IMG/VR virus record: IMGVR_UViG_3300047181_000017
Span: 1 to 42,038 of that record
Length of the DNA stretch: 42,038 bases
Source: a virus
Direction: 5' to 3' (one strand)
The stretch's first letter is position 1, and each line of letters opens with the position of its first letter. Positions 780-37,473 of the stretch are shown one piece after another. Both the position numbers and the translations under genes were made by a program. The notes beneath the pieces were generated by a model. It was not told the origin of the DNA, ran no database searches, and saw only the letters and a list, made by a program, of their open reading frames with translations.

Positions 780-2549
780 ATGAAATACCAAAGCTCAAAC
801 ACCCGTGCAATACTGGAAATAGATTTTACTAGAAAATCTGATATTTGTCCAGAATGTTCAAAAACCAGAAAAAAAGCAAAACTTAAAGCATTGCAATATT
901 ATGCCAAAGAAAACCGGGCGCATTGTTTTCATTGTAATACTACATTTTTTGAGTATAAACCTTACATCAAAGAAAAACAATATACAGTTCCTGAATGGAA
1001 AAATATTACTAAACTTTCTGATAAGGCTGTAAAGTGGTTTACTGGCAGAATGATTTCACAAGATACTTTGGTTAAAATGAGGGTATATTCTGCAATGGAA
1101 TGGATGCCGCAATTTGACAAAAATTTTGAAGTGATTTGTTTCCCTTTTTTCCAGGATGAAAAACTTAAAAATATAAAATATAGGGGTCCTGAAAAATCAT
1201 TTAAATTATTTTCGGGTGCTGAATTAATTTGGTACAATTTCGATGCAATAAAAGCCAATAAGGAAATAATTATTGTTGAAGGTGAAATTGATGCTTTAAC
1301 ATGGATTGAAAATAAATATGATAATGTTATTTCAGTTCCAAATGGTGCTAATAATAACCTGGAATATCTTGAAAGTTCTATTGAATTATTTGAACAGGTT
1401 GAAACTATTTATTTGGGTACTGATGTTGATACCAAAGGAATTGAATTAAAAGACGAATTGATTAGAAGGTTTGGACACGAAAAATGCAAAATATTATCAT
1501 TCAAAGAGTGTAAAGATTCAAACGAATATTTTTGTAAATATGGTGGGATTGAATTTAAAAACCTATTAAACGAATCCAGACAAATTGAAATTAAAGGGGT
1601 AATTGAAATTGATTCTATTTATGAGAAAGCATTAGATTTATACGAAAATGGTATACAATCAGGAAAAAAGATTAATAACCAATCATTAGATGAGTTAATA
1701 ACATGGGAGCTTAGTCGATTAGCTTTATTTTCTGGAAGGCCATCAAGTGGAAAATCTGAATTGGTTGATTATATAGTTTGCAAATTGAATATTCTTTATG
1801 ATTGGAAATCTGCTTTTTTTACACCTGAAAACTACCCTTTAGAATATCATTATGCAAAATTACATGAAAAGTTTTCCGGTAAAAAATTCAATAAAAATTA
1901 TAACGATACAGATTTTGATACCATTTATGACCATATAAGCAGGAATTTTTATTACATCCTGAATGAAGATAATATGACTTTAGACTTTATTTTGGATGCT
2001 GCTAAAATAATGATAAAAAAATATGGTATTAAAATACTGGTAATTGATCCTTATAACGTGGTGGATCATCAATATGATAAAGGAATAAGCGAAACCCAGT
2101 ATATAAGTAAATTTCTTAATAAATTGGTTTTATTCTCACGAACCTACCAAATATTAATCATATTGGTTGCACATCCCAGGATATTACAAAAAGGTGAAAA
2201 GGCAACAATGTATACAATTAGCGGTTCGGCTCACTTCTTTAATAAAGTTGATTATGGGATTATAGTTGATAGGCCAATTGATAATGAAACCGGGGTTATG
2301 GGTAATTTAACCGAAATTTCAATTCACAAGGTAAAATTTAAGCATCTTGGTAAACAAGGGGTATCAAATCTAAACTACAATTATAATAATGGTAGGTATG
2401 AACCAATTGAAGGCGATGTAAATTCATGGGATAATTCTAATTGGCTGGATACAGGACAAAAACAGGAAACAATAAATTTCAATAAAGGAATAGAACCGAA
2501 TTACGATTATTCAAACGATTTTAAAGAAGTTGACGAAATACCATTTTGA
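780..2549 (+). CDS. Bifunctional DNA primase-helicase (T7 gp4/Twinkle-like)
   Basis: A 589-residue replicative primase-helicase. A zinc-binding domain carries CPEC (Cys23, Cys26) and CFHC (Cys49, Cys52). A Toprim domain follows, with VEGEIDALT near 166-174 (catalytic Glu) and GTDVDTKG near 213-220 (Asp-x-Asp). The C-terminal DnaB/RecA-type helicase domain has Walker A GRPSSGKSE near 319-327 and Walker B ILVIDPYN near 419-426. In the family the protein unwinds DNA as a hexamer and makes RNA primers at the fork. It follows the putative initiator by one base, consistent with an initiator-helicase operon. All key motifs are present, so the gene looks active. Confidence 0.93.
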   Translation: MKYQSSNTRAILEIDFTRKSDICPECSKTRKKAKLKALQYYAKENRAHCFHCNTTFFEYKPYIKEKQYTVPEWKNITKLSDKAVKWFTGRMISQDTLVKMRVYSAMEWMPQFDKNFEVICFPFFQDEKLKNIKYRGPEKSFKLFSGAELIWYNFDAIKANKEIIIVEGEIDALTWIENKYDNVISVPNGANNNLEYLESSIELFEQVETIYLGTDVDTKGIELKDELIRRFGHEKCKILSFKECKDSNEYFCKYGGIEFKNLLNESRQIEIKGVIEIDSIYEKALDLYENGIQSGKKINNQSLDELITWELSRLALFSGRPSSGKSELVDYIVCKLNILYDWKSAFFTPENYPLEYHYAKLHEKFSGKKFNKNYNDTDFDTIYDHISRNFYYILNEDNMTLDFILDAAKIMIKKYGIKILVIDPYNVVDHQYDKGISETQYISKFLNKLVLFSRTYQILIILVAHPRILQKGEKATMYTISGSAHFFNKVDYGIIVDRPIDNETGVMGNLTEISIHKVKFKHLGKQGVSNLNYNYNNGRYEPIEGDVNSWDNSNWLDTGQKQETINFNKGIEPNYDYSNDFKEVDEIPF

Positions 2550-2550
2550 T

Positions 2551-2676
2551 ATGAAAAAACTACCAAAATACATCAAAACATTTCCTATTAAGGATATTTT
2601 AAAGGCAACTAAAAGTCTTAAGTATGGTAAGCTGCCAAAAGAAAGTTTTGAACCGTTAAAACCAAAATTAGCATGA
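2551..2676 (+). CDS. Small basic protein, unknown
   Basis: A 41-residue ORF rich in lysine, beginning MKKLPKYIKTFPIKDILK. It starts two bases after the primase-helicase stop and overlaps the resolvase gene by ATGA (2673-2676). This tight coupling is the main support for a real gene. No family is recognised. A 15-bp stretch near its start (2564-2578) recurs at 3130-3144 after the resolvase. Confidence 0.55.
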   Translation: MKKLPKYIKTFPIKDILKATKSLKYGKLPKESFEPLKPKLA

Positions 2677-3122
2677 AATACGAATATATAATCGGTATCG
2701 ATCCAGACGTGGACAAATCAGGTATTGCAATTTACAACACGGGCACAAAACAAATAAAATTATTTAATTTGTCATTTCCTGAATTGATTGAAAAGTTAAC
2801 CGAAGTACAATTGATAGCATGGGACTATATTGTAGTTATTGAAGCCGGATGGCTAAATAGTTCTAATTGGCACTTGCCTACGCCTTGCACCAACAAAATG
2901 GCCGCAAGTATTGGTAATCGCACTGGAAGAAACCACCAGACTGGGATATTATTAGTTGAAATGCTTAAATTCAAAGGCATTAACGTAGTCGAAAAAAAAC
3001 CGATTCAAAAAATTGGGGGCAAAAAAATTAGTGCCGAAATGATTAAAAAAATAATACCTAATTTTACCAACTCATCCAATCAAGAAACCAGGGATGCCGC
3101 AATGATTGCATTTACTTTTTAA
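2673..3122 (+). CDS. RuvC-like Holliday junction resolvase
   Basis: A 149-residue protein of the RNase H fold. It has the RuvC signature GIDPDVDKSG (catalytic Asp10), VVIEAGW (Glu57) and a C-terminal RDAAMIAF helix (Asp141), the pattern of acidic residues that bind the metal ions. In phages such enzymes resolve branched recombination and replication intermediates before packaging. It completes the replication operon. The protein ends seven residues after the last motif, slightly earlier than many relatives, and the cassette array begins about 115 bases downstream, so slight trimming of the C-terminus is possible. Confidence 0.85.
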   Translation: MKYEYIIGIDPDVDKSGIAIYNTGTKQIKLFNLSFPELIEKLTEVQLIAWDYIVVIEAGWLNSSNWHLPTPCTNKMAASIGNRTGRNHQTGILLVEMLKFKGINVVEKKPIQKIGGKKISAEMIKKIIPNFTNSSNQETRDAAMIAFTF

Positions 3123-3237
3123 AACATGACAAAATACATCAAAAATAAATCGGTTTTTATTATGAACATATAAAAATTTTTAGAATCATTGTCAGAAAAT
3201 GAATTAGAAAATCATTTTAAACATATTTAAAAATACT
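3123..3237. other. Non-coding remnant between resolvase and first attC
   Basis: No intact gene is seen. A 15-residue ORF starts at 3127 and shares CAAAATACATCAAAA (3130-3144) with the start of the small gene at 2551 (2564-2578). A further open stretch reads LESLSENELENHFKHI and stops just before the first attC-like site. This could be the decayed gene of a former first cassette, or phage backbone broken by cassette insertion. Confidence 0.4.
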
Positions 3238-3337
3238 TGTATAACGGTTGACTTATAGCCGCATTAAAAGCAAAACTAAACTATAAAATTAAGCGGTGGC
3301 CGTCCGCTTTTATTGACGGCTATAAAATGTTATAAGC
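3238..3337 (+). other. attC-like site 1
   Basis: The inverse core GTATAAC ends at 3245 and the core GTTATAAGC lies at 3329-3337. The inner arms pair: the left arm around 3253-3271 (TATAGCCGCATTAAAAGC) and the right arm around 3305-3326 (GCTTTTATTGACGGCTATA). Extra unpaired bases follow the left core, as in real attC sites. The expected crossover lies between G3329 and T3330. The start codon of the next gene follows at once at 3338. Confidence 0.8.
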
Positions 3338-3634
3338 ATGAAAACTTTACATCTTAATTTACATAAACAATGGTTTGATATGATTCTTTCTGGTTATAAA
3401 AAAGAAGAATATAGACGTAATACAGATTATTATCATTCAAAATTCAATAAAGTCAAAGCATATAATGTCAAAACAATAACATTCTCAAATGGATACGCTA
3501 AAAATAGAAGGCAATTTGTTATTGAAATTTTATACATCTCAATTCGTGAAGGTTTAATGGAATGGGGTGCAGAAAAAGGAGTTGTTTATTATTGCATTCA
3601 TCTTGGTAAAATCATTTCCTCTAATTGCGCTTAA
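3338..3634 (+). CDS. ASCH domain protein (cassette A)
   Basis: A 98-residue protein resembling ASCH-domain proteins of phages: MKTLHLNLHKQWFDMILSG is the typical first strand and helix, followed by KKEEYR, which in the family lines the RNA-binding groove. ASCH domains are PUA-like and are thought to bind RNA; some hydrolyse modified nucleosides. The gene starts directly after the attC1 core, so its translation start lies 8 bases inside the cassette. Its stop codon TAA (3632-3634) is embedded in the inverse core of attC2. Expression probably depends on an upstream promoter. The function in this phage is unknown. Confidence 0.75.
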   Translation: MKTLHLNLHKQWFDMILSGYKKEEYRRNTDYYHSKFNKVKAYNVKTITFSNGYAKNRRQFVIEILYISIREGLMEWGAEKGVVYYCIHLGKIISSNCA

Positions 3635-3770
3635 CGAATAGCGGTTTGCGGCGTTGCTTTTTTTCGCTCGTAAACCGCTAAAAAGTATCAATTTACACAA
3701 AAGTTATAAACAGGTAGAAAGTTGAAAGTACAGAAAAAAAGCAATGAACGCTAAACCGCATGTTATGTGC
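3627..3770 (+). other. attC-like site 2
   Basis: The inverse core is GCGCTTAAC (3627-3635) and the core is GTTATGTGC (3762-3770). The inner arms at about 3637-3657 (ATAGCGGTTTGCGGCGTTGC) and 3741-3761 (GCAATGAACGCTAAACCGCA) are near-complementary with a few mismatches. At 144 bp it is the longest site of the array. The next cassette begins at T3763. Confidence 0.82.
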
Positions 3771-3785
3771 ATTTATCTATTTTTT

Positions 3786-4688
3786 ATGAAAATTGAATTA
3801 AAAGAATTAAATAAACGGCAAAAATGGAATTTAAACCAAAAAATTGACCATAGTCTTGGTGCAATAGAACAATTTTATAATCATTGCGATGGGAAAGTTG
3901 GTGTAAGTTTTTCTGGTGGCAAAGATAGTACCGTTTTATTGCATTTAGTTAGAAAATATTATCCAAATATTGTTGGAGTTCATGCAAATACTGGGCTTGA
4001 ATATCCTGAAATAACAAATTTTGTAAAAAAACAAGAAAATATAGTTTTAGTTAGACCTTTAAAAAGTTATTTTCAAATTGTTAAAGAATTTGGATGGCCG
4101 CTTTTGAGCAAAAATATTTCAAGGCAAGTTTACAGAATGCAAAATAACCCAACCGAAAAACAAATATTACAAGCAAATAGCAAAGGAAGTGATAGAATAC
4201 CTGAAAAATTCATGTGGCTTATAGATAGCGAAATAAAATTAAGTGATAAATGTTGCTTTTACATGAAAGAAGAACCACTTGATAGTTTTTATAGAGAAAA
4301 TAATTTATTCCCAATAATCGGAACAATGGCAGCAGAAAGTAGAAGAAGAGCATTAGCATGGGCTTCTGGTGGTGGGTGTAATATTTTAGAAGGCATAAAT
4401 AAAAAATCAAAACCCTTATCAATTTGGCTTGAAAAAGACATTTGGCAATATATAAAAATGTTTAATATTGAAATTTCCGAAGCATATCAATGGTACAAAA
4501 GAACTGGTTGTATGTATTGTGGTTATGGTATTCATTTAAATAATGGATACAATAAGTTTAATTTATTAAAGAAAACACACCCTAAACATCACAATTTAAT
4601 TATAAATAAAAAAGGACTTGGTTGTATATTGAAAAAGTTGCATCTTCATTATTCTGAAAGTCCGATTGAAATGCAGTCGCTTTTTTGA
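3786..4688 (+). CDS. PP-loop ATPase / PAPS reductase-like protein (cassette B)
   Basis: A 300-residue protein of the adenine nucleotide alpha-hydrolase superfamily. SFSGGKDST at 41-49 is the PP-loop that binds ATP pyrophosphate. CCFYMKEEP near 155 and a GCMYCG motif near 241-246 suggest a metal- or thiol-dependent site, as in phage phosphoadenosine phosphosulfate reductase family proteins. Relatives include sulfate reduction enzymes and DndC-type DNA phosphorothioation proteins; the exact reaction cannot be read from sequence. An in-frame ATG at 3744 lies inside attC2, so the ATG at 3786, after the recombination core, is chosen as the start. The stop lies two bases before the inverse core of attC3. 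Confidence 0.82.
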   Translation: MKIELKELNKRQKWNLNQKIDHSLGAIEQFYNHCDGKVGVSFSGGKDSTVLLHLVRKYYPNIVGVHANTGLEYPEITNFVKKQENIVLVRPLKSYFQIVKEFGWPLLSKNISRQVYRMQNNPTEKQILQANSKGSDRIPEKFMWLIDSEIKLSDKCCFYMKEEPLDSFYRENNLFPIIGTMAAESRRRALAWASGGGCNILEGINKKSKPLSIWLEKDIWQYIKMFNIEISEAYQWYKRTGCMYCGYGIHLNNGYNKFNLLKKTHPKHHNLIINKKGLGCILKKLHLHYSESPIEMQSLF

Positions 4689-4690
4689 TT

Positions 4691-4792
4691 GCACATAACG
4701 GTTTCGCCAGTATGCGTAGGCTGGCTATATGACTACGTATCAAGTTTAACAGCACTATCCGCCAGCTTACGTATGACTGGCTGTTATAGGGC
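4691..4792 (+). other. attC-like site 3
   Basis: The inverse core is GCACATAAC (4691-4699) and the core is GTTATAGGGC (4783-4792). The arms CGCCAGTATGCGTAGGCTGGC-type (4705-4725) and 4761-4782 pair over about 20 bases with few mismatches. Five bases (GGTTT) on the left side have no partner on the right, the asymmetry expected of attC sites. The core reverse complement matches the inverse core that ends the next cassette. Confidence 0.88.
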
Positions 4793-4807
4793 GTTTTATT
4801 AAATAAA

Positions 4808-5005
4808 ATGAAAAGCACAGAAATTAAAGTAATAAAAATAGCAATACGCATACAATGTGAATGCCCACACTGCAATCAAACAATTGGAGTATTGTATGAT
4901 GAATTTATAAATATAGTTGGGCAACCCTGTGATTGGAAATACTCAAAATTTCATTGCACTAAATGCGGAAATGAAATAGAAATAGATAGTGTCGACTGGG
5001 ATTAA
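4808..5005 (+). CDS. Small zinc-ribbon protein (cassette C)
   Basis: A 65-residue protein with CECPHC near residue 16-21 and CTKC near 50-53, which together form a likely four-cysteine zinc ribbon. It is the only gene of the 312-bp cassette and starts 25 bases inside it. The stop ends one base before the inverse-core region of attC4. Zinc ribbons of this size often bind nucleic acids or proteins, but no specific function is recognised. Confidence 0.7.
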   Translation: MKSTEIKVIKIAIRIQCECPHCNQTIGVLYDEFINIVGQPCDWKYSKFHCTKCGNEIEIDSVDWD

Positions 5006-5006
5006 T

Positions 5007-5103
5007 GCCCTATAACGGTTCGTGTATGAGCAGTGGCACTTGTACACACTTTCAAATTAGAAGAAACGCTTGTGTGCCATTGCTTATACACGGTGTTAGC
5101 CAC
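5007..5103 (+). other. attC-like site 4
   Basis: The inverse core is GCCCTATAAC (5007-5016) and the core is GTTAGCCAC (5095-5103). The left arm GTGTATGAGCAGTGGCAC and the right arm GTGCCATTGCTTATACAC are near-perfect complements. The site is almost identical to attC5 through its arms and centre, but the outer cores differ. Confidence 0.88.
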
Positions 5104-5135
5104 AGTTTTTGTATTAATTTTAAAATCATATAATT

Positions 5136-6014
5136 ATGGAATTTACAAAGTATCAACACGTAGAAAGATTAGGAACTACAGAAACAAACGGAATTGAAAT
5201 GGGAATGTGTTATATATTTCCCAAAATTGACGGCACAAACTCTCAACTTTGGTTTGAAAATGGATTGCAAGCTGGTAGCCGTAACCGACATTTAGAAGTT
5301 GAAAATGATAATGCTGGCTTTTATAATTGGGCTTTACAGCAAGAAATGTTTAAATTATTTTTTGATAAATACCCAAACTTGCGATTATTTGGCGAATGGC
5401 TTGTACCACATACTTTGAAAACATACCAAAAAACAGCATGGAATAACTTTTATGTGTTTGACGTAATAGATGGAAAAAACTATTTGCCTTACGAAACATA
5501 CAAAGTAATACTCGATGAATTTGGGATTGAATACATACCGCCAATTTGCAAAGTTGAGAACCCAACTTACGAACGATTAGTAAACCAATTAGAAAAAAAT
5601 GGTTACTTAATTGAAGATGGACAAGGAACCGGCGAAGGTATTGTAATTAAAAACTACAATTACAAAAACAGGTTTGGGCGTGTTGTTTGGGCTAAGATTG
5701 TTAAAAACGAATTTAAGGCAAAACACGCTAAATGCGATGTTACCGAGATTAAAGAGAACAAAATTATTGAAGAAGAAATAGTAAATAAGTTTGTTACAAA
5801 GGCTTTAATTGAAAAGGAACTGGCAAAAATAGAAACTGAAAGCGGTTGGAGCAGCAAACAGATACCACGAATTTTAAATACTGTTTTCTACTGCCTTATA
5901 AAAGAAGAAAGTTGGAACTTTGTTAAGGAGTTTAAAAATCCGACTGTTGATTTTAAACGACTTTCATTCTTTACGATTAACCGCATAAAAGAAGTAATGC
6001 CGCATCTTTTTTAA
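5136..6014 (+). CDS. RNA ligase, T4 Rnl2-like (cassette D)
   Basis: A 292-residue nucleotidyltransferase of the RNA ligase family. Motif I is KIDGTN with Lys30 as the adenylated residue; motif III is RLFGEWLVPH near 83-92, followed by FYVFDVI (IIIa). Motif IV is EGIVIKNY near 168-175 and motif V is VWAKIVK near 183-189. A C-terminal helical region of about 90 residues follows. Members join or repair RNA ends, for example tRNAs cut by host defence nucleases. All motifs are present, so it should be active. It is the single gene of a 1.0-kb cassette between attC4 and attC5. Confidence 0.9.
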   Translation: MEFTKYQHVERLGTTETNGIEMGMCYIFPKIDGTNSQLWFENGLQAGSRNRHLEVENDNAGFYNWALQQEMFKLFFDKYPNLRLFGEWLVPHTLKTYQKTAWNNFYVFDVIDGKNYLPYETYKVILDEFGIEYIPPICKVENPTYERLVNQLEKNGYLIEDGQGTGEGIVIKNYNYKNRFGRVVWAKIVKNEFKAKHAKCDVTEIKENKIIEEEIVNKFVTKALIEKELAKIETESGWSSKQIPRILNTVFYCLIKEESWNFVKEFKNPTVDFKRLSFFTINRIKEVMPHLF

Positions 6015-6017
6015 ATT

Positions 6018-6113
6018 GTGGCTAACGTTTGGTGTATGAGCAGTGGCACTTGTACACACTTTCAAATTAACTACACCGCTTATGTGCCATTGCTTATACA
6101 CGGTGTGTGCGCC
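6018..6113 (+). other. attC-like site 5, with altered right core
   Basis: The inverse core is GTGGCTAAC (6018-6026). The right core region reads GTGTGCGCC (6105-6113), with GTG in place of the expected GTT. The arms and central part are nearly the same as in attC4, including a long stretch around 6033-6068 identical to 5023-5058. The next cassette still ends in a partly matching inverse core (GAGGCATAAC at 6919), so the boundary is kept, but this site may recombine poorly. Confidence 0.8.
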
Positions 6114-6161
6114 TCGTTTATTATTTATTTTACAATTATTCTAAAAATATTTGTCATTTTA

Positions 6162-6193
6162 TTTGCATATTACAATTAATAGTATTATATTTG
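6162..6193 (+). promoter_or_regulatory. Bacteroidota-type promoter inside cassette E
   Basis: The -33 element TTTG lies at 6162-6165, followed by a 20-base spacer and the -7 element TATATTTG at 6186-6193. This is an exact match to the TAnnTTTG consensus. It sits in the non-coding start of the cassette, 46 bases before the first gene, so this cassette carries its own promoter. Confidence 0.75.
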
Positions 6194-6238
6194 TATAACA
6201 ATTGAGAGACAAACCAACTCAATGTAAAACACAAAAAG

Positions 6239-6676
6239 ATGGAAGTAGCAAAAATGATACAAATACTTACAGATTCTAAAGTAAGAATATGTGACTGGAT
6301 GTTTGACACAAACGCAAATACTGACAATGGTTGGAAAATATCTATTCAGGGTAAAAGTGTTATTGACGCAATTACTTTGTATCAAAGACTTAATGGCTTT
6401 TTATTTGCAAACAATGTGCCTTTTAAGATTGCTACCCAAAAAAGAATTAATCTTGAAAATAAGGTTCAAGCTAATAAGGTTATGACCATTTATATTCCTA
6501 ATGGAGTAAACCGTTTTGAATTTGCTGAAACAATATATTCAATGATTATTGATTATAAAGGATGGAATGATATTACACACATTCGCCACGGGCTGAACGG
6601 TTATGAAACTTATGCTGGTGGTATATTCATGAGAAATGATAGAGATGAGTATGGAAACTACATTCCAGCAAACTAA
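6239..6676 (+). CDS. Unknown protein (cassette E, first gene)
   Basis: A 145-residue protein of mixed alpha/beta composition, with no signal peptide or membrane segment. No family is recognised. It follows a good promoter within the cassette and starts at an ATG preceded by an A-rich leader. The middle (KIATQKRINLENKVQANKVM) is basic and the C-terminal third contains an RHGLNGYETYAGG segment. It is followed by a second short gene in the same cassette, which is unusual for integron cassettes. Confidence 0.65.
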   Translation: MEVAKMIQILTDSKVRICDWMFDTNANTDNGWKISIQGKSVIDAITLYQRLNGFLFANNVPFKIATQKRINLENKVQANKVMTIYIPNGVNRFEFAETIYSMIIDYKGWNDITHIRHGLNGYETYAGGIFMRNDRDEYGNYIPAN

Positions 6677-6682
6677 TCGTTC

Positions 6683-6726
6683 AGTAAAAATGAACGTTCA
6701 TTGACAATGAACACTTAAAAATAATG
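6683..6726. repeat. Inverted and direct TGAAC repeats between two cassette genes
   Basis: CGTTCA at 6679-6684 pairs with TGAACG at 6692-6697 and the stretch ATGAACGTTCAT is a perfect palindrome. TGAAC occurs again at 6709 and 6726. The arrangement could be an operator or a small hairpin between the two genes of cassette E. No T-run follows, so it is not a clear terminator. Confidence 0.35.
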
Positions 6727-6927
6727 AACATGAGAATAATTTTAGCAGTATTTAATGATAGGTTTGAAGTATATACAAGCCTTAAACCTTTCTTCGTTAA
6801 ATACCCACAATATTTAAAACTCAAAGAACAAATTAACTATACTATGTCTCGAAAAAAACAGCCTTACGAGCATTCAGATTTCAAGTTACAACGAATGAAT
6901 GTACGAGGCTCTTTAAATGAGGCATAA
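6724..6927 (+). CDS. Small unknown protein (cassette E, second gene)
   Basis: A 67-residue basic protein starting MNMRIILAVFNDRFEVY. No family is recognised. Its stop TAA (6925-6927) lies within the inverse core GAGGCATAAC of attC6, the same arrangement as in other cassettes of the array, which supports it as the true last gene of the cassette. Confidence 0.6.
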   Translation: MNMRIILAVFNDRFEVYTSLKPFFVKYPQYLKLKEQINYTMSRKKQPYEHSDFKLQRMNVRGSLNEA

Positions 6928-7021
6928 CGAAGCGGCTGTATGCAGCGTTTGCAGCCGTTAAAACTTTCAATTTTCGCAATCATTGTCCGCTGCAAATGAT
7001 TGTATACAGCATGTTATAAGC
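6919..7021 (+). other. attC-like site 6
   Basis: The inverse core is GAGGCATAAC (6919-6928) and the core is GTTATAAGC (7013-7021). The left arm GGCTGTATGCAGCGTTTGCAGC and the right arm around 6989-7011 (GCTGCAAATGATTGTATACAGC) pair with interruptions. The next cassette starts at T7014. Confidence 0.85.
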
Positions 7022-7032
7022 ATTTTTTTATC

Positions 7033-7557
7033 ATGGTTATACAAGGACAATTATTTGAAACGGTAGTAAATGAAAAAGATATAGTTTACACGCCTGAACG
7101 TATCGCAAAAGGAATTATTAATTATTTGCAACCTGATGGCACTTGTTTAGACCCGTGCAAAGGTGATGGGGCTTTTTATAAATTCATGCCTAAAAATGCT
7201 GATTATTGCGAAATTAGAGAAAACAAAGATTTTTTTAAATACTCAAAAAAAGTAAATTGGATAATCGGAAACCCGCCTTATTCTATTTTCAAAGAGTTTT
7301 TAGAAAAATCTTTTGAAATTGCCGATAATGTTTCGTTTTTAGTTCCAACAAATAAGATTTTTCAAAGACAAATAATAATGGATATGATTAATAATTATGG
7401 TGGAATTAAAAGCATGATTATTTTCGGTAGCGGTCAATTATTAGATTTTCCATTTGGATTTTCGGTAGGTAATTTTCACTTTCAAAAAAACTTCAAAGGT
7501 GCAAGTGAAACAATTATCGGGATGAAAAACGTTAATCATGTTTTTGATTGCTTATAA
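7033..7557 (+). CDS. Adenine-specific DNA methyltransferase (cassette F)
   Basis: A 174-residue class I SAM-dependent methyltransferase. Motif I is DPCKGDGAF (40-48), which binds SAM, and motif IV is NPPY (80-83), the mark of amino-methyltransferases acting on adenine N6. It is compact and lacks an obvious target recognition domain, as in small phage enzymes that protect phage DNA. An upstream in-frame TTG at 7000 lies inside attC6, so the ATG at 7033 is preferred. The stop TAA (7555-7557) lies within the inverse core of attC7. Confidence 0.85.
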   Translation: MVIQGQLFETVVNEKDIVYTPERIAKGIINYLQPDGTCLDPCKGDGAFYKFMPKNADYCEIRENKDFFKYSKKVNWIIGNPPYSIFKEFLEKSFEIADNVSFLVPTNKIFQRQIIMDMINNYGGIKSMIIFGSGQLLDFPFGFSVGNFHFQKNFKGASETIIGMKNVNHVFDCL

Positions 7558-7683
7558 CGAAAAATTGCAGCCGCCGTTTGTGCGGCTCACAAAAGAAAAT
7601 TGAAAGTAAAATGTTAATGATTAACCACAAATGTAAGTTAATAGCACACCGCACAAATGGTCGGTCTGCAATATGTTATGTGC
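7550..7683 (+). other. attC-like site 7
   Basis: The inverse core is GCTTATAAC (7550-7558) and the core is GTTATGTGC (7675-7683). The left arm ATTGCAGCCGCCGTTTGTGCGG-type (about 7565-7586) pairs with the right arm (about 7651-7673, CCGCACAAATGGTCGGTCTGC). The loop of about 65 bases makes this 134-bp site one of the longer ones. Confidence 0.85.
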
Positions 7684-7717
7684 TTTTTATTTTCATTCGT
7701 CAAAAATCTTAATCAAA

Positions 7718-8173
7718 ATGTTAAAAGGATTAATTTATTCAGATACAAGATTTTGGGAAGTTTTCAATGAAAAAAATGAAAGTTTAGGAATATTCATGTA
7801 CGGTGATTTAATTGAAAATTTTTGTGGTAGCGTTTTAAAAGAAATTTATGAAGATTTAAAAAGAAAAAATTATACTGCGAAAATTATCGGTGATATAATG
7901 CCTTATGAAATTGACAGCGAAAATCCTGTTATTCAAAAAAAGAAACTTGAATTTCGTAAAAGAGAAAGCAAAAAAGACAAAAAACGAGCTTTGAAAAAAG
8001 GTTTTAAATTAGATAGTACGATAAAATTTGGCAAATATTCAGGAACTAAAATAAAAGAATTAATTGATAAATATAAATCGTATTGGCAGTGGCTTTTAAA
8101 TGAAAAGGTACTTTTATTACACCCTGATACGATACAATATTCTATCGAATGTGGTTTTATTCATAGCACATAA
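7718..8173 (+). CDS. DUF3820/exonuclease X C-terminal-like protein (cassette G)
   Basis: A 151-residue protein. The C-terminal part reads FGKYSGTKIKEL (about 105-116) and YWQWLLNEK (about 122-131), which matches the short FGKYKG-x-WL domain found in DUF3820 proteins and at the end of some exonucleases. The middle is very lysine-rich. The N-terminal part is not recognised. The ATG at 7673 lies across the attC7 core, so the ATG at 7718 is preferred. The stop TAA is inside the half site GCACATAAC at 8166-8174. Its function is unknown; a nucleic acid-related role is likely. Confidence 0.6.
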   Translation: MLKGLIYSDTRFWEVFNEKNESLGIFMYGDLIENFCGSVLKEIYEDLKRKNYTAKIIGDIMPYEIDSENPVIQKKKLEFRKRESKKDKKRALKKGFKLDSTIKFGKYSGTKIKELIDKYKSYWQWLLNEKVLLLHPDTIQYSIECGFIHST

Positions 8174-8174
8174 C
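8166..8174 (+). other. attC half site at right edge of cassette array
   Basis: GCACATAAC is the inverse core expected for cassette G, since it is the reverse complement of the GTTATGTGC that opens it at 7675. No matching right arm or GTT core follows in the next 200 bases. The last attC therefore appears truncated, which marks the right edge of the array. Confidence 0.65.
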
Positions 8175-30363: not shown

Positions 30364-31094
30364 TTCAATTTATTTTTGACAATATTTTAAAATTATTTGC
30401 AATATTACTTCCTATCGCACCTGTAGTTTTTGCCCAAATTAAGCAATACAGAGCAACAAAAAAAGATAATAAAATAATAACCGATTCTTTGAAAGAATTA
30501 TATTCACAAAACGAAAAAATAGAAAAAAGTGTAACATCTCATCAGGATGTTACTAAATTCAATCTTGATTTGAGAAACGGAATTCAGATAAAGGCAAATC
30601 AGGCTATCAGTTATTCAAAACTTGACCCAGAATTTAAGGCTATTATGAAAGAGATTTCAAGGCGGCTAGAATCATTGGCATTTGGATTTTACTACAATAA
30701 AAATAGGGGGAAAATTTACGAAATTGAGGATTTTGTAAATGAAGAAATAAATGATTTGAAAAATTGTTATTCCGCTTTAATAAAAAATATTGATAAATCA
30801 AAAATTACAGGTTGGGACAAATTTGGACAGCCTAAACTTGTATATTTTGATAAATTTATGTTGGACGAAAATACGCGTAGACCTTTTTGTTATTTCGATT
30901 CATTAAAATACACGCTGGATAAAAATGGATTTGATAATAAAAATGATGAAAATAGTCCGGATTTTATTGAAACTATGATTGCCTACACAAAAAACACATT
31001 GAATAAATTTGTGGACGATGTAAATGAGTGGAATAAAATAAAAGAGGTGCCAGAACCTGCGCAAATCATTAAAGATAAATATCACAATGACTGA
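30360..31094 (+). CDS. Membrane-anchored unknown protein
   Basis: A 244-residue protein with one N-terminal hydrophobic segment (ILKLFAILLPIAPVVFAQI, about 8-27) and a long soluble helical part. It is followed by small membrane genes that may be holins. It could be a spanin-like or lysis-regulating protein, but no motif proves this. Confidence 0.55.
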   Translation: MIQFIFDNILKLFAILLPIAPVVFAQIKQYRATKKDNKIITDSLKELYSQNEKIEKSVTSHQDVTKFNLDLRNGIQIKANQAISYSKLDPEFKAIMKEISRRLESLAFGFYYNKNRGKIYEIEDFVNEEINDLKNCYSALIKNIDKSKITGWDKFGQPKLVYFDKFMLDENTRRPFCYFDSLKYTLDKNGFDNKNDENSPDFIETMIAYTKNTLNKFVDDVNEWNKIKEVPEPAQIIKDKYHND

Positions 31095-31464
31095 TTTATT
31101 CATAGAAAAAACATACTCCTTACCAGGTTTTGACTATAAAAAAAATGGCCAATGTAGAATTTTTGGTAATTCAAGACCGGAAAATGTTGAGGAAATTGGC
31201 GGAATTTATGAAATCGGAATGAAATTCTTAGAAAAATTAACTTCAATGGGTATACTCATTGATTTTACTTTTGAATTTGATTATTTTAATACTTCCACTC
31301 AAAAATATATCTACAACATCCTTTTTTTATTAGAAAGTCAGCCTGTCAAAGGGTCTGTAACTTGGATTTATTTTACTATCGACGAAGATATGGAAGAAAT
31401 GGGAACTCAATATAAAGATATGTTCAAAAAATTAAAAATTAAATTAAAACGTAAAAAATTATGA
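31087..31464 (+). CDS. Unknown protein
   Basis: A 125-residue protein with no recognised domain. It overlaps the preceding gene by 8 bases and the next membrane gene by ATGA. The sequence FTFEFDYFNTSTQKYIYNIL is beta-rich and the C-terminus is strongly basic (LKIKLKRKKL). Confidence 0.5.
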   Translation: MTDLFIEKTYSLPGFDYKKNGQCRIFGNSRPENVEEIGGIYEIGMKFLEKLTSMGILIDFTFEFDYFNTSTQKYIYNILFLLESQPVKGSVTWIYFTIDEDMEEMGTQYKDMFKKLKIKLKRKKL

Positions 31465-33857: not shown

Positions 33858-34122
33858 AAAATAATTCCTATCTTTGAATCGGTTTAAGTTTTTCATATAG
33901 ATTTTAGGTTTAGTTTAGTTATTAGTTTAGCCCGGGTAGTTTCTATTCGGGCTTTTTTATTCCAAATAGTCCACAAATCAAACACAATTTAGCACTAAAA
34001 CGACAAAATGAAATAGTTATCAAAAATATTATAAAATTTAACAATTATTAACAATTAATGTGTACAACGTATCACAATAAAACCTATCTTTACATCATAT
34101 TAATAACTTAAAAATTTGAAAG
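33858..34122. other. Non-coding region between two operons
   Basis: No gene is seen in these 265 bases. They hold a possible lone -7 element TATCTTTG at 33869-33876, a terminator at 33929-33958, a direct repeat TTAACAATTA near 34038-34056, and a possible weak promoter -7 element TATCTTTA at 34085-34092. A transcript of about 75 bases between the first -7 element and the terminator is possible but has no clear -33 box. Confidence 0.5.
33929..33958 (+). terminator. Rho-independent terminator
   Basis: AGCCCG (33929-33934) pairs with CGGGCT (33948-33953), followed by TTTTTT. It ends the KilA-N to methyltransferase transcription unit. Confidence 0.82.
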
Positions 34123-34317
34123 ATGAAAACTTATAATTTGAACGCAAAACAGAAATTCAATTTAGCAACACCTTCACAGCTTAGATTATTGAAGACATTT
34201 ACAAATGTAACTATAAATATCTTTGACAATAGGTTTTTGAACTATTGTTCAAAAGATAAAGCTTCTGAAATAATTGAAGATGCAAAAAAAGGTATTGATA
34301 TAACTATTAATTCGTAG
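34123..34317 (+). CDS. Small unknown protein upstream of ribozyme
   Basis: A 64-residue protein with no recognised domain (MKTYNLNAKQKFNLATPSQL). It ends inside the left arm of the hammerhead ribozyme. Its leader AAAAATTTGAAAGATGAAAAC is nearly repeated upstream of the next gene, so the two genes may come from a duplication of a gene-plus-leader unit. Confidence 0.55.
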   Translation: MKTYNLNAKQKFNLATPSQLRLLKTFTNVTINIFDNRFLNYCSKDKASEIIEDAKKGIDITINS

Positions 34318-34324
34318 AAGTTTC
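34309..34324 (+). repeat. 16-bp direct repeat, copy 1 (ribozyme left arm)
   Basis: AATTCGTAGAAGTTTC occurs here and again at 34568-34583. In both cases it directly follows a small gene. Copy 1 forms the left strand of stem I of the hammerhead ribozyme. Confidence 0.8.
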
Positions 34325-34376
34325 TGATGAGTCTTTGAAAATTAAGACGAAACCCTCGAAAGAGGGTCAAACTTTA
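34315..34376 (+). ncRNA. Type I hammerhead ribozyme
   Basis: All core elements are present in order. Stem I left strand is GAAGTTT (34317-34323), then CTGATGA (34324-34330). Stem II is GTCTT (34331-34335) with AAGAC (34344-34348) and an 8-base loop, then GAAA (34349-34352). Stem III is CCCTC (34353-34357) with GAGGG (34362-34366) and a GAAA tetraloop. TC follows (34367-34368), and the stem I right strand is AAACTTT (34369-34375). Expected self-cleavage lies after C34368. Since both ends enter stem I, it is type I. It lies between two small genes. Confidence 0.88.
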
Positions 34377-34388
34377 AAAATTTGCAAG

Positions 34389-34568
34389 ATGAAAACAAGA
34401 AAAAATTACATTAAAAACCTAGAATTTAGATTTTTCTCTAACTTCGGTAAACTGTATCTAACTGTAGATTACAATCGTAATGGTGAACACAACCATTACA
34501 CTTATTCTAACATACATAGCACTCTGAAACACGATGAAAAAAGTGTGCGAGAATACATAAACAGATAA
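34389..34568 (+). CDS. Small unknown protein downstream of ribozyme
   Basis: A 59-residue basic protein, MKTRKNYIKNLEFRFF and on. A longer reading frame with a TTG start at 34335 would run through the ribozyme, so the ATG at 34389 is preferred. It lies 20 bases after the predicted ribozyme cleavage site. A second copy of the 16-bp repeat and a terminator follow it. Confidence 0.6.
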   Translation: MKTRKNYIKNLEFRFFSNFGKLYLTVDYNRNGEHNHYTYSNIHSTLKHDEKSVREYINR

Positions 34569-34605
34569 TTCGTAGAAGTTTCGCAAATTCTTTTGCGAAT
34601 AAACC
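34568..34605 (+). repeat. Repeat copy 2 with simple hairpin
   Basis: AATTCGTAGAAGTTTC (34568-34583) repeats the ribozyme left arm, but instead of the hammerhead core it is followed by TTCGCAAA paired with TTTGCGAA and then AAAC. It may be a degenerated or replaced ribozyme. Confidence 0.6.
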
Positions 34606-34606
34606 G

Positions 34607-34638
34607 CCCCGCTATCTTAACACGAAGCGGGGTTTTTG
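34607..34638 (+). terminator. Rho-independent terminator
   Basis: CCCCGC (34607-34612) pairs with GCGGGG (34627-34632), followed by TTTTT. It ends the ribozyme-containing unit. Confidence 0.85.
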
Positions 34639-34667
34639 GGTAAAAACTAATAATTAAAACTAAATAT

Positions 34668-34868
34668 ATGAAAATAATTTATTTAAGAGATGAAAATTAC
34701 AATTGGAAAGAATTTAAATATGAGATTCTTAAAGATTTAAAAAATGAATTTGAAGGCAGGAATATCACACTTGGCGATTTTTGCACACTTGGCAATTCTT
34801 GCGCACTTGGCGAATCTTGCGAACAATTCTCAAAACTAAAAAATACTAATTATGGAAATATCAACTAA
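34668..34868 (+). CDS. Small protein with LGxxC repeats
   Basis: A 66-residue protein. Near residues 33-52 it has three six-residue repeats (TLGDFC, TLGNSC, ALGESC), encoded by 18-bp repeats at 34766-34821. Hexapeptide repeats can form one turn of a left-handed beta-helix, but three are few for a stable fold. No function is recognised. It overlaps the next gene by 17 bases. Confidence 0.55.
   Translation: MKIIYLRDENYNWKEFKYEILKDLKNEFEGRNITLGDFCTLGNSCALGESCEQFSKLKNTNYGNIN
34766..34821 (+). repeat. Three 18-bp tandem repeats within a small gene
   Basis: Units start at 34766, 34784 and 34802 with the pattern CACACTTGGCGATTTTTG and near copies. The period is a multiple of three, so the reading frame is kept. 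Confidence 0.75.
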
Positions 34869-35034
34869 ATTACAGGCTGCTAATGTAGTACTAGCATTGA
34901 TTGACAAAAATATCAAACGTGGAGATGCTGATTTTAAAAAACAAGAATATTTATTTAAAACCAGGCACGAAGTTGTTTTAAAAATTAACAACTTGGAAGC
35001 TGAAGAAAAATTGACCAGCCAAGAAACCAATTAA
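34852..35034 (+). CDS. Small helical protein, unknown
   Basis: A 60-residue, charged, probably coiled-coil protein (FKTRHEVVLKINNLEAEEKL). It overlaps the preceding gene by 17 bases. No family is recognised. Confidence 0.5.
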   Translation: MEISTKLQAANVVLALIDKNIKRGDADFKKQEYLFKTRHEVVLKINNLEAEEKLTSQETN

Positions 35035-35910: not shown

Positions 35911-37473
35911 ATGGAAAACGTAAAAATCAAAAAAGTAGATGTCAATAATCTAAAGGCTGTTAGTAGTTTTACAGCCTTTTTTGACGGCAAAAGTGCCCAC
36001 GTTACCGGGGCAAATGGAATTGGTAAAAGTACTGTTATTCGTACTTTAACGGATAGATTAAGAGGTTTAAAACCTTCAATAGTAACAAAAATTGGTGAAA
36101 AAGAAGGTAAAACAGTAATGGAATTAACAGATGGATGCAGATTTGAATGGTCATATAATGATGTTGGGAAAGATGAATTGAACTATTTTACCCCTGCCAG
36201 TTTAAAACCTGTAAGACGTGAATTTTTTAAGCATATTTGTGGCCAATACTTTCCTAATCAGTTTGATATTAACAAATTTTTAACTACAACAGAACCTCGC
36301 AAAAGGCTGCAAATGATTTCTGAATTAGTTAATGTAGATTTAACCGAAATACAAGCAAGATATAAGTATGCTTTTGATTCGCGCCGGGATGCAAAAAGAG
36401 ATCTTAAAATTCTGGAATCTCAAATTAAGCCAAAACCAGAATTTACAGCGATTGAAAGCAAAGAAATTTTAGATATTGAGCAAAATAATGTTGCTGAAAT
36501 AGAGGCTAAAATTAAGTCCAAAAAAGAACAAATTGAAACTGAAAGAAATTCTTTGAATGCTAAATATTTAATTAACAAAGTTGCAAATGAAAAGCTTGAA
36601 AACCAACATAAAGAAGCTTATAGAATTGCACTTGATAAATGGATTGAAAACGAAGATTTAATTCAGGATGAAATTGAAAAATTCAATGATGAACAAAAAG
36701 ATAAATCTAATTTCATCATTGAAAATCAAAACCACTTGGATTTCATGGTAAAAAGCTATCAGGATATAGGAATAGGCAAATTCATTGATTTTGTTGGAAT
36801 AGGCAAGTATATTGATGAACTGCCAAAACCAGAAATTTTAAATGTTTACATCCAAAGTTCAAAGCCTGAATTAACTACTTTAGAATTGCCAGATCCAATG
36901 CCAAAAAGCGAAAATTTAAATGCAATGAAAGCAGAATTAACCGAATTAGAAACATCCTATCAGGGTGCTTTTAATGAATTAGAACAAAAGAAAACTTCAT
37001 TGAGTGAATTAAATTCAGCTAAACAAGTATACGAAATTCAGTTAAAGCAATGGAATGATTTTAAGCGTCAAATTGATGAAAACCAAAAAGAAGTTGACGA
37101 ATTAGAAGAAAATGTATTGTATATTTTTAATGAAATCAAAACAATGATCTCAAAAACAAAACTCCCTTCTGAATTTTCAATTGATTTAACGGACAAAAAT
37201 GATATTCTTTTCCGTCCAAATGTCGAGAGCGATTTTCTTCCTATAACGAATGAAACCCTTGCAAGCTCGGCAATTTTCATTGCAGCGTTCAAATTACAGG
37301 CAAACTATTTGGAATCGTTTAGGGTTGCTCACTTCGATGTAAGTTATTTAGACTTTGAAAATAGGCAAAAAGTTTTAAAAGAAGCTATTGCAATGGATAT
37401 TCAATTGATAACCGAAAGCCCGGCAATGGATGAAAATTCGCTTGAATTGCAGTATAAAATTACAGAAATTTAA
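35911..37473 (+). CDS. SMC/RecF/SbcC-like ATPase
   Basis: A 520-residue protein. Walker A GANGIGKST lies at 33-41. A long coiled-coil region follows (about 145-410), and the C-terminal ATPase half has an LASSAIFIAAFKL stretch (signature-like) and the Walker B-like VAHFDVSYLD near 470. This is the layout of SMC-type recombination ATPases such as the SbcC/Rad50 family, but short. It lies upstream of the RecE-like nuclease and RecT genes, so it probably belongs to the recombination module. Confidence 0.82.
   Translation: MENVKIKKVDVNNLKAVSSFTAFFDGKSAHVTGANGIGKSTVIRTLTDRLRGLKPSIVTKIGEKEGKTVMELTDGCRFEWSYNDVGKDELNYFTPASLKPVRREFFKHICGQYFPNQFDINKFLTTTEPRKRLQMISELVNVDLTEIQARYKYAFDSRRDAKRDLKILESQIKPKPEFTAIESKEILDIEQNNVAEIEAKIKSKKEQIETERNSLNAKYLINKVANEKLENQHKEAYRIALDKWIENEDLIQDEIEKFNDEQKDKSNFIIENQNHLDFMVKSYQDIGIGKFIDFVGIGKYIDELPKPEILNVYIQSSKPELTTLELPDPMPKSENLNAMKAELTELETSYQGAFNELEQKKTSLSELNSAKQVYEIQLKQWNDFKRQIDENQKEVDELEENVLYIFNEIKTMISKTKLPSEFSIDLTDKNDILFRPNVESDFLPITNETLASSAIFIAAFKLQANYLESFRVAHFDVSYLDFENRQKVLKEAIAMDIQLITESPAMDENSLELQYKITEI

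Follow-up and report, generated by a model that had tools for sequence, protein, structure and literature searches.

In 2011 Perreault et al. (PMC3088659) described type I hammerhead ribozymes from bacteria and prophages and proposed that the prophage ones process long phage transcripts. They reported that three arrangements cleaved in vitro and that the one from Agrobacterium also did so in E. coli, and they were not able to detect RNA circles. A 2017 review (PMC6155905) still called the role of phage hammerheads an open question, and the remark of an earlier sequence-only reading of the present locus, that their part in mRNA processing is for the most part unexplained, is in line with that review, although processing had by then been proposed in PMC3088659. 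Here we analysed a virus record of 42,038 bases and 31% GC (IMG/VR IMGVR_UViG_3300047181_000017; the window), which carries a type I hammerhead between two small genes, A and B. The capsid protein is closest to those of Flavobacterium phages, at about 35% identity, and the host is probably a Flavobacterium-type bacterium. Since transcript processing of this kind was proposed and partly tested in 2011, the window provides a further probable example; the new details are a stop-codon G that replaces the A of related ribozymes and a 17-nt copy of the ribozyme 5' edge after gene B. It is also a small, clean case, with two genes, one ribozyme and likely terminators on each side.

Inspection of the letters and a descriptor scan revealed a complete type I hammerhead at positions 34317-34375 of the plus strand. 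The core CUGAUGA (DNA CTGATGA, 34324-34330) is followed by stem II (34331-34348), in which GUCUU pairs with AAGAC over 5 bp (34331-34335/34344-34348) around the loop UGAAAAUU, by the core GAA (34349-34351) and by stem III (34352-34367). In the latter, ACCCUC pairs with GAGGGU over 6 bp (34352-34357/34362-34367) and is capped by a GAAA tetraloop, as found by both scan and fold; its first base, A34352, directly follows the core GAA and is A15.1. C34368 is C17, and according to the hammerhead consensus cleavage is predicted 3' of it. Stem I consists of the 5' strand AAGUUU (34318-34323) and the 3' strand AAACUUU (34369-34375), giving six Watson-Crick pairs (34318-34323/34369-34374), to which G34317 is able to add a G-U pair with U34375, 7 bp in total. 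The sequence carries CUGANGA, GAA and (A)U-H, with H not G, as in type I ribozymes. In the descriptor scan as well as in the covariance-model alignment stems II and III are closed by loops and stem I is open, and because stem III is closed by GAAA while stem I is open, the ribozyme is of type I and not of type III. The intact CTGATGA, GAAA and TC elements, the 5-bp stem II and the 7-bp stem I of the sequence-only reading were all found again at their positions, the last as six Watson-Crick pairs plus one G-U; for stem III the GNRA loop stood, but its length of 5 bp had to be corrected to 6 bp once the A15.1-U16.1 pair is counted.

The prophage type I hammerheads presented by Perreault et al. 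(PMC3088659) share with the window the core, the open stem I, the sense position between phage genes and the proposed processing of transcripts. The window differs from those presented there in having a single copy, in belonging to the group with loop II UGAAAAUU, and in that a stop codon supplies the base adjoining stem I, a G instead of an A. No Rfam family matched in the window at gathering thresholds. The top sub-threshold family, RAGATH-1-hammerhead (RF03152; 22.6 bits, gathering 56.3), resembles the window in core, stem III and stem I but differs in the stem II loop and in stem III length. Hammerhead_3 (RF00008; 20.4 bits, gathering 48.5) aligns over the core and the stem II region, loop UGAAA included, whereas the window ribozyme has an open stem I and a closed stem III. 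Retrozymes and viroid-like RNAs have the catalytic motif in common with it; in contrast to these, the window holds one intact copy, which lies next to protein-coding genes of a DNA phage, and a retrozyme-like unit bounded by two intact hammerheads was not found there, only the one ribozyme and the 17-nt partial copy. The Rfam gathering thresholds missed the loop II UGAAAAUU type I group: a group member was reported at 0 of 20 loci tested, each of which holds one. The other ribozymes reported at those 20 loci numbered three, a RAGATH-1 hammerhead (L171) and two Pistol ribozymes that lie at 2806-2875 and 3609-3678 of phage contig L140, near type I hammerheads.

The descriptor scan of both strands gave one type I match in the window. 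In 300 windows simulated with a first-order Markov model (12.6 Mb, one strand) one match occurred at loose limits and none with every stem of at least 5 bp. Neither the type I descriptor scan nor the covariance model found a second hammerhead on the minus strand or elsewhere in the window. Folding of 34300-34400 gave -16.9 kcal/mol for the hammerhead and -17.2 kcal/mol for the minimum free energy structure; in this model, computed without tertiary contacts, the hammerhead fold is near-optimal yet not the minimum, and we counted the slightly lower competing fold against an active ribozyme.

Relatives were collected by searching viral contigs for the stem II core pattern, which gave at least 120 stretches, among them many full type I and type III hammerheads. 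The loop II UGAAAAUU pattern with any four bases on each side gave 83 viral-contig stretches, and in genome contigs 33 pattern matches (Clostridia, Bacteroidales, Elusimicrobia and others). A hammerhead script was run on 194 fetched loci and the window; two loci that are copies of the window (L001 and L002) were left out. Among the matches listed, 167 of these 195 records contained 231 distinct hammerheads, 189 of type I and 42 of type III, in a set that is not a fair sample, its loci having been chosen by stem II and loop patterns. Exact repeats were removed and near-copies kept, except that identical cores were collapsed for the comparison of distances to the next start. The loop UGAAAAUU is common, among the matches listed, to 66 distinct type I hammerheads including that of the window. 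Core and loop II are shared throughout this group and stem II mostly so, whereas stems I and III differ between members. From the 65 other members, those with a long stem III, cut ends or identical cores were dropped, and in an alignment of the remaining 47 the proportion of paired cells was 97.2%, versus 69.6% in shuffles, and 12 of 16 pairs had two-sided changes; the covariation score was 0.677, compared to 0.157 for shuffles and at most 0.082 for slid controls. Compensatory changes were seen in all three stems of the relatives. A covariance model of the 47 phage hammerheads, from which the window was held out, scored the window ribozyme at 72.3 bits (E 4e-20), the next match in the window reaching 12.5 bits, and in a joint search of 80 sources it ranked 45th of 100 matches. 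By sequence and predicted structure the window hammerhead is thus an ordinary member of its group, and the type I assignment of the sequence-only reading is upheld by the held-out model, the compensatory changes and the common genomic setting.

The base at position i-7, immediately outside stem I, sets the window apart. Among the matches listed it is A in 65 of the 66 members with loop UGAAAAUU and G in the window only, where G34317 is at the same time the last base of the gene A stop codon TAG. Loop II of the window is identical to that of the group, while i-7 is G versus A in the 65 others. The conservation, together with the loop-stem I contact known for type I ribozymes from the review literature (PMC6155905), suggests that the i-7 base probably contacts loop II. 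A G at this position may weaken the contact, and the window ribozyme could cut more slowly when magnesium is low. We counted this base, too, against an active ribozyme.

To describe the genomic setting we called genes with a simple ATG-ORF script (at least 50 codons). Among the matches listed, 162 of the 189 type I hammerheads were usable, the others being near record ends. Only 35 of these 162 lay inside a called ORF, versus 80% of random points, and of the 127 outside, 93 had sense genes on both sides and one had antisense genes on both sides, again among the matches listed. In 81 of 103 listed cases the next sense start followed the predicted cleavage site within 60 nt. The next sense start was 20-60 nt past the cleavage site in 79% of the 86 sense-sense cases among the matches listed; the same held for 40% of 407 points placed at random in gaps that lack a ribozyme. 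The median gap among those matches was 95 nt with a ribozyme and 62 nt for other sense gaps. Phage type I hammerheads hence lie between co-directional genes, about 35 nt upstream of the next start, and the window agrees. Among the matches listed, the 179 type I cases included 115 whose upstream reading frame stayed open as far as the ribozyme. In 36 of these 115, a stop codon was placed at the stem I edge (-6 or -5 from the core C), versus 16.7 for a random frame, whereas stops within the core UGA were not enriched (23 versus 23.3 expected; both counts among the matches listed). In the window the gene A TAG ends at 34317, the -6 position, which is one of the two modal positions. Stops adjoining stem I are more common than a random frame gives, an excess that we take as suggestive, since near-copies are present in the set and the conserved edge A favours TAA. 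We found no description of stop codons adjoining phage hammerheads in titles and abstract openings, a search largely outside the subscription literature, and we claim no priority.

Gene A (34123-34317, plus strand, 64 aa) ends with the TAG at 34315-34317, which adjoins the 6-bp stem I, and gene B (34389-34568, plus strand, 59 aa) would have a 20-nt leader if the cut follows C34368; the gene starts at 34123 and 34389 given by the sequence-only reading are correct. Gene A matched no PHROG and no Pfam family up to E 0.1, had no relative in viral contigs by pattern search, and gave a single weak phage match (E 0.4) in a tblastn of phages. Gene B likewise had no PHROG, no phage relative by tblastn and no viral-contig relative by pattern search, and its one Pfam row was far under the cut-off. 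No nucleotide relatives of 34000-35000 were found in named phages. The gene B leader (34374-34397, plus strand) and the gene A leader (34108-34131) share 92% identity across 24 nt, and no other place in the window resembles the two. Homology of A and B, prompted by the common leader and tail, was rejected as the proteins gave no alignment. After gene B there is an exact plus-strand copy (34566-34582) of 34308-34324, which covers the gene A end and continues through the stem I 5' strand to the first core C; when the region was simulated 2000 times, an exact 17-nt repeat of any kind turned up in 16 runs. More than one type I hammerhead on one strand was present, among the matches listed, in 28 of 134 loci. 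Phage contig L111 has eight type I hammerheads within about 5.5 kb (1341-6845), most with near-identical stem I. Among the matches of the survey, stem I was at least 5/6 identical in 54 of 85 same-locus pairs versus 3.1% between loci, while leaders (0.37 within, 0.29 between) and upstream flanks (0.29 within, 0.28 between) were hardly closer inside one locus than across loci. Because hammerheads of one locus share stem I, the 17-nt copy may be a remnant of a second hammerhead that had this stem I.

An intrinsic-terminator scan gave a terminator-like site before gene A (33929-33963, plus strand), and after gene B the fold contains a likely intrinsic terminator (34604-34635, plus strand) with a GC stem and a T run, whose loop exceeds the limit of the scan tool. 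With such hairpins at both flanks, gene A, the ribozyme and gene B look like a single self-contained unit. Sigma-70 promoter sites were below shuffle level, and the candidate promoter motif TANNTTTG, with 92 occurrences versus 81 expected, did not rise above chance, so that we claim no promoter. Two related phage records were found by means of the 520-aa protein encoded at 35911. The only one that spans the locus, L198, has other small genes there and no hammerhead, and the covariance model matched in neither record (0/2). The ribozyme is therefore not conserved in the close relatives, which we likewise counted against the favoured explanation, and the A-ribozyme-B unit is, judged from these genomes, accessory.

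On the basis of its position, splitting of the A-B transcript appears to be the best-supported function, and we consider it likely that an active type I hammerhead cuts this transcript co-transcriptionally after C34368 to give two separately decaying and translated mRNAs; we infer activity, timing and an effect on stability or expression, next to the observed motif, homologues, covariation and common layout. The ribozyme would fold once 34375 is transcribed and cleave after C34368. The upstream product would contain gene A, be capped by the 6-bp stem III hairpin and bear a 2',3'-cyclic phosphate, and the downstream product would carry a 5'-hydroxyl, the 20-nt leader resembling that of A, which would begin with the stem I strand AAACUUU, and gene B, the end groups being those of hammerhead chemistry (PMC6155905). 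The dicistronic RNA would in this manner become two mRNAs with set ends, decaying and being translated separately. A narrower role, to which we give somewhat less than an even chance, is that predicted cleavage mainly tunes or destroys one product, either because the 5'-hydroxyl exposes or shields the B mRNA or because the A:B ratio is set. That the B leader of 20 nt nearly repeats that of A and that the A product would end in a stable hairpin speaks for it, as both product ends would be set, but by sequence it is inseparable from splitting of the transcript into two mRNAs. Timing of cleavage by gene A translation we regard as unlikely: a ribosome terminating at the UAG 34315-34317 would cover stem I and core, so that the ribozyme would fold only once the ribosome is gone. 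The window fits, and stops at stem I are about twice as frequent as in a random frame (36 versus 16.7, among the matches listed), yet compact gene packing and a conserved A doubling as the last base of the stop could mimic the pattern, and stops in the core UGA, listed 23 times versus 23.3 expected, are not enriched. Still somewhat less likely is the general form of this idea, in which the type I hammerheads of phages would be integrated into the upstream gene's end so that the terminating ribosome keeps the ribozyme open, and cleavage would then report that gene A has been read and free a B mRNA with a set leader. The stop-codon layout offers a direct way to test a linkage of translation and self-cleavage.

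We find it improbable that the ribozyme is an inactive relic, for its core bases and three stems are intact and its covariance-model score is mid-ranked, although the G at i-7, the lack of a hammerhead in L198 and the repeat after gene B would fit decay. Most improbable is a role in RNA circles or in a mobile RNA element whose second hammerhead, once located downstream of gene B, has since decayed. The 17-nt copy of the ribozyme 5' edge, a repeat of a kind met in 16 of 2000 simulations, the stem I shared, among the matches listed, by same-locus hammerheads and an RNA ligase gene within the window point in this direction. However, the RNA ligase family concerned joins a 3'-hydroxyl to a 5'-phosphate, which does not suit hammerhead ends, the window has a single intact hammerhead, and end-to-end pairing of the B mRNA, AAACUUU with the copied GAAGUUU, was rejected at a probability of <0.01. 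In the work of Perreault et al. (PMC3088659) no circles could be detected.

Several other features of the window were noted. The small gene at 34668-34868 contains three 18-nt direct repeats (34766-34819) that encode LGDF, LGNS and LGES, and its relative in L198 has a similar run. A phage gene carries a SiaC-family regulatory phosphoprotein domain (PF09345, E 1.8e-16) at 31087-31464. Phage integrons have been published before (PMC9892861), and positions 3762-8174 of the window hold integron-type gene cassettes, five units (3762-4699, 4783-5016, 5095-6026, 7013-7558 and 7675-8174) that start with GTTR and whose first and last 10 nt are exactly complementary. Such complementary-end pairs were found six times in the window versus a mean of about 1.4 in 20 simulations. 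The first three cassettes are followed by hairpins that we take to be attC-like. The RNA ligase gene (5136-6014; PF09414, E 5.8e-19) is one of the cassette genes, its cassette lying between two long hairpins of nearly the same sequence (about 5022-5095 and 6032-6105), and another cassette has a gene with a phosphoadenosine phosphosulfate reductase domain (3744-4688; PF01507, E 1.2e-19).
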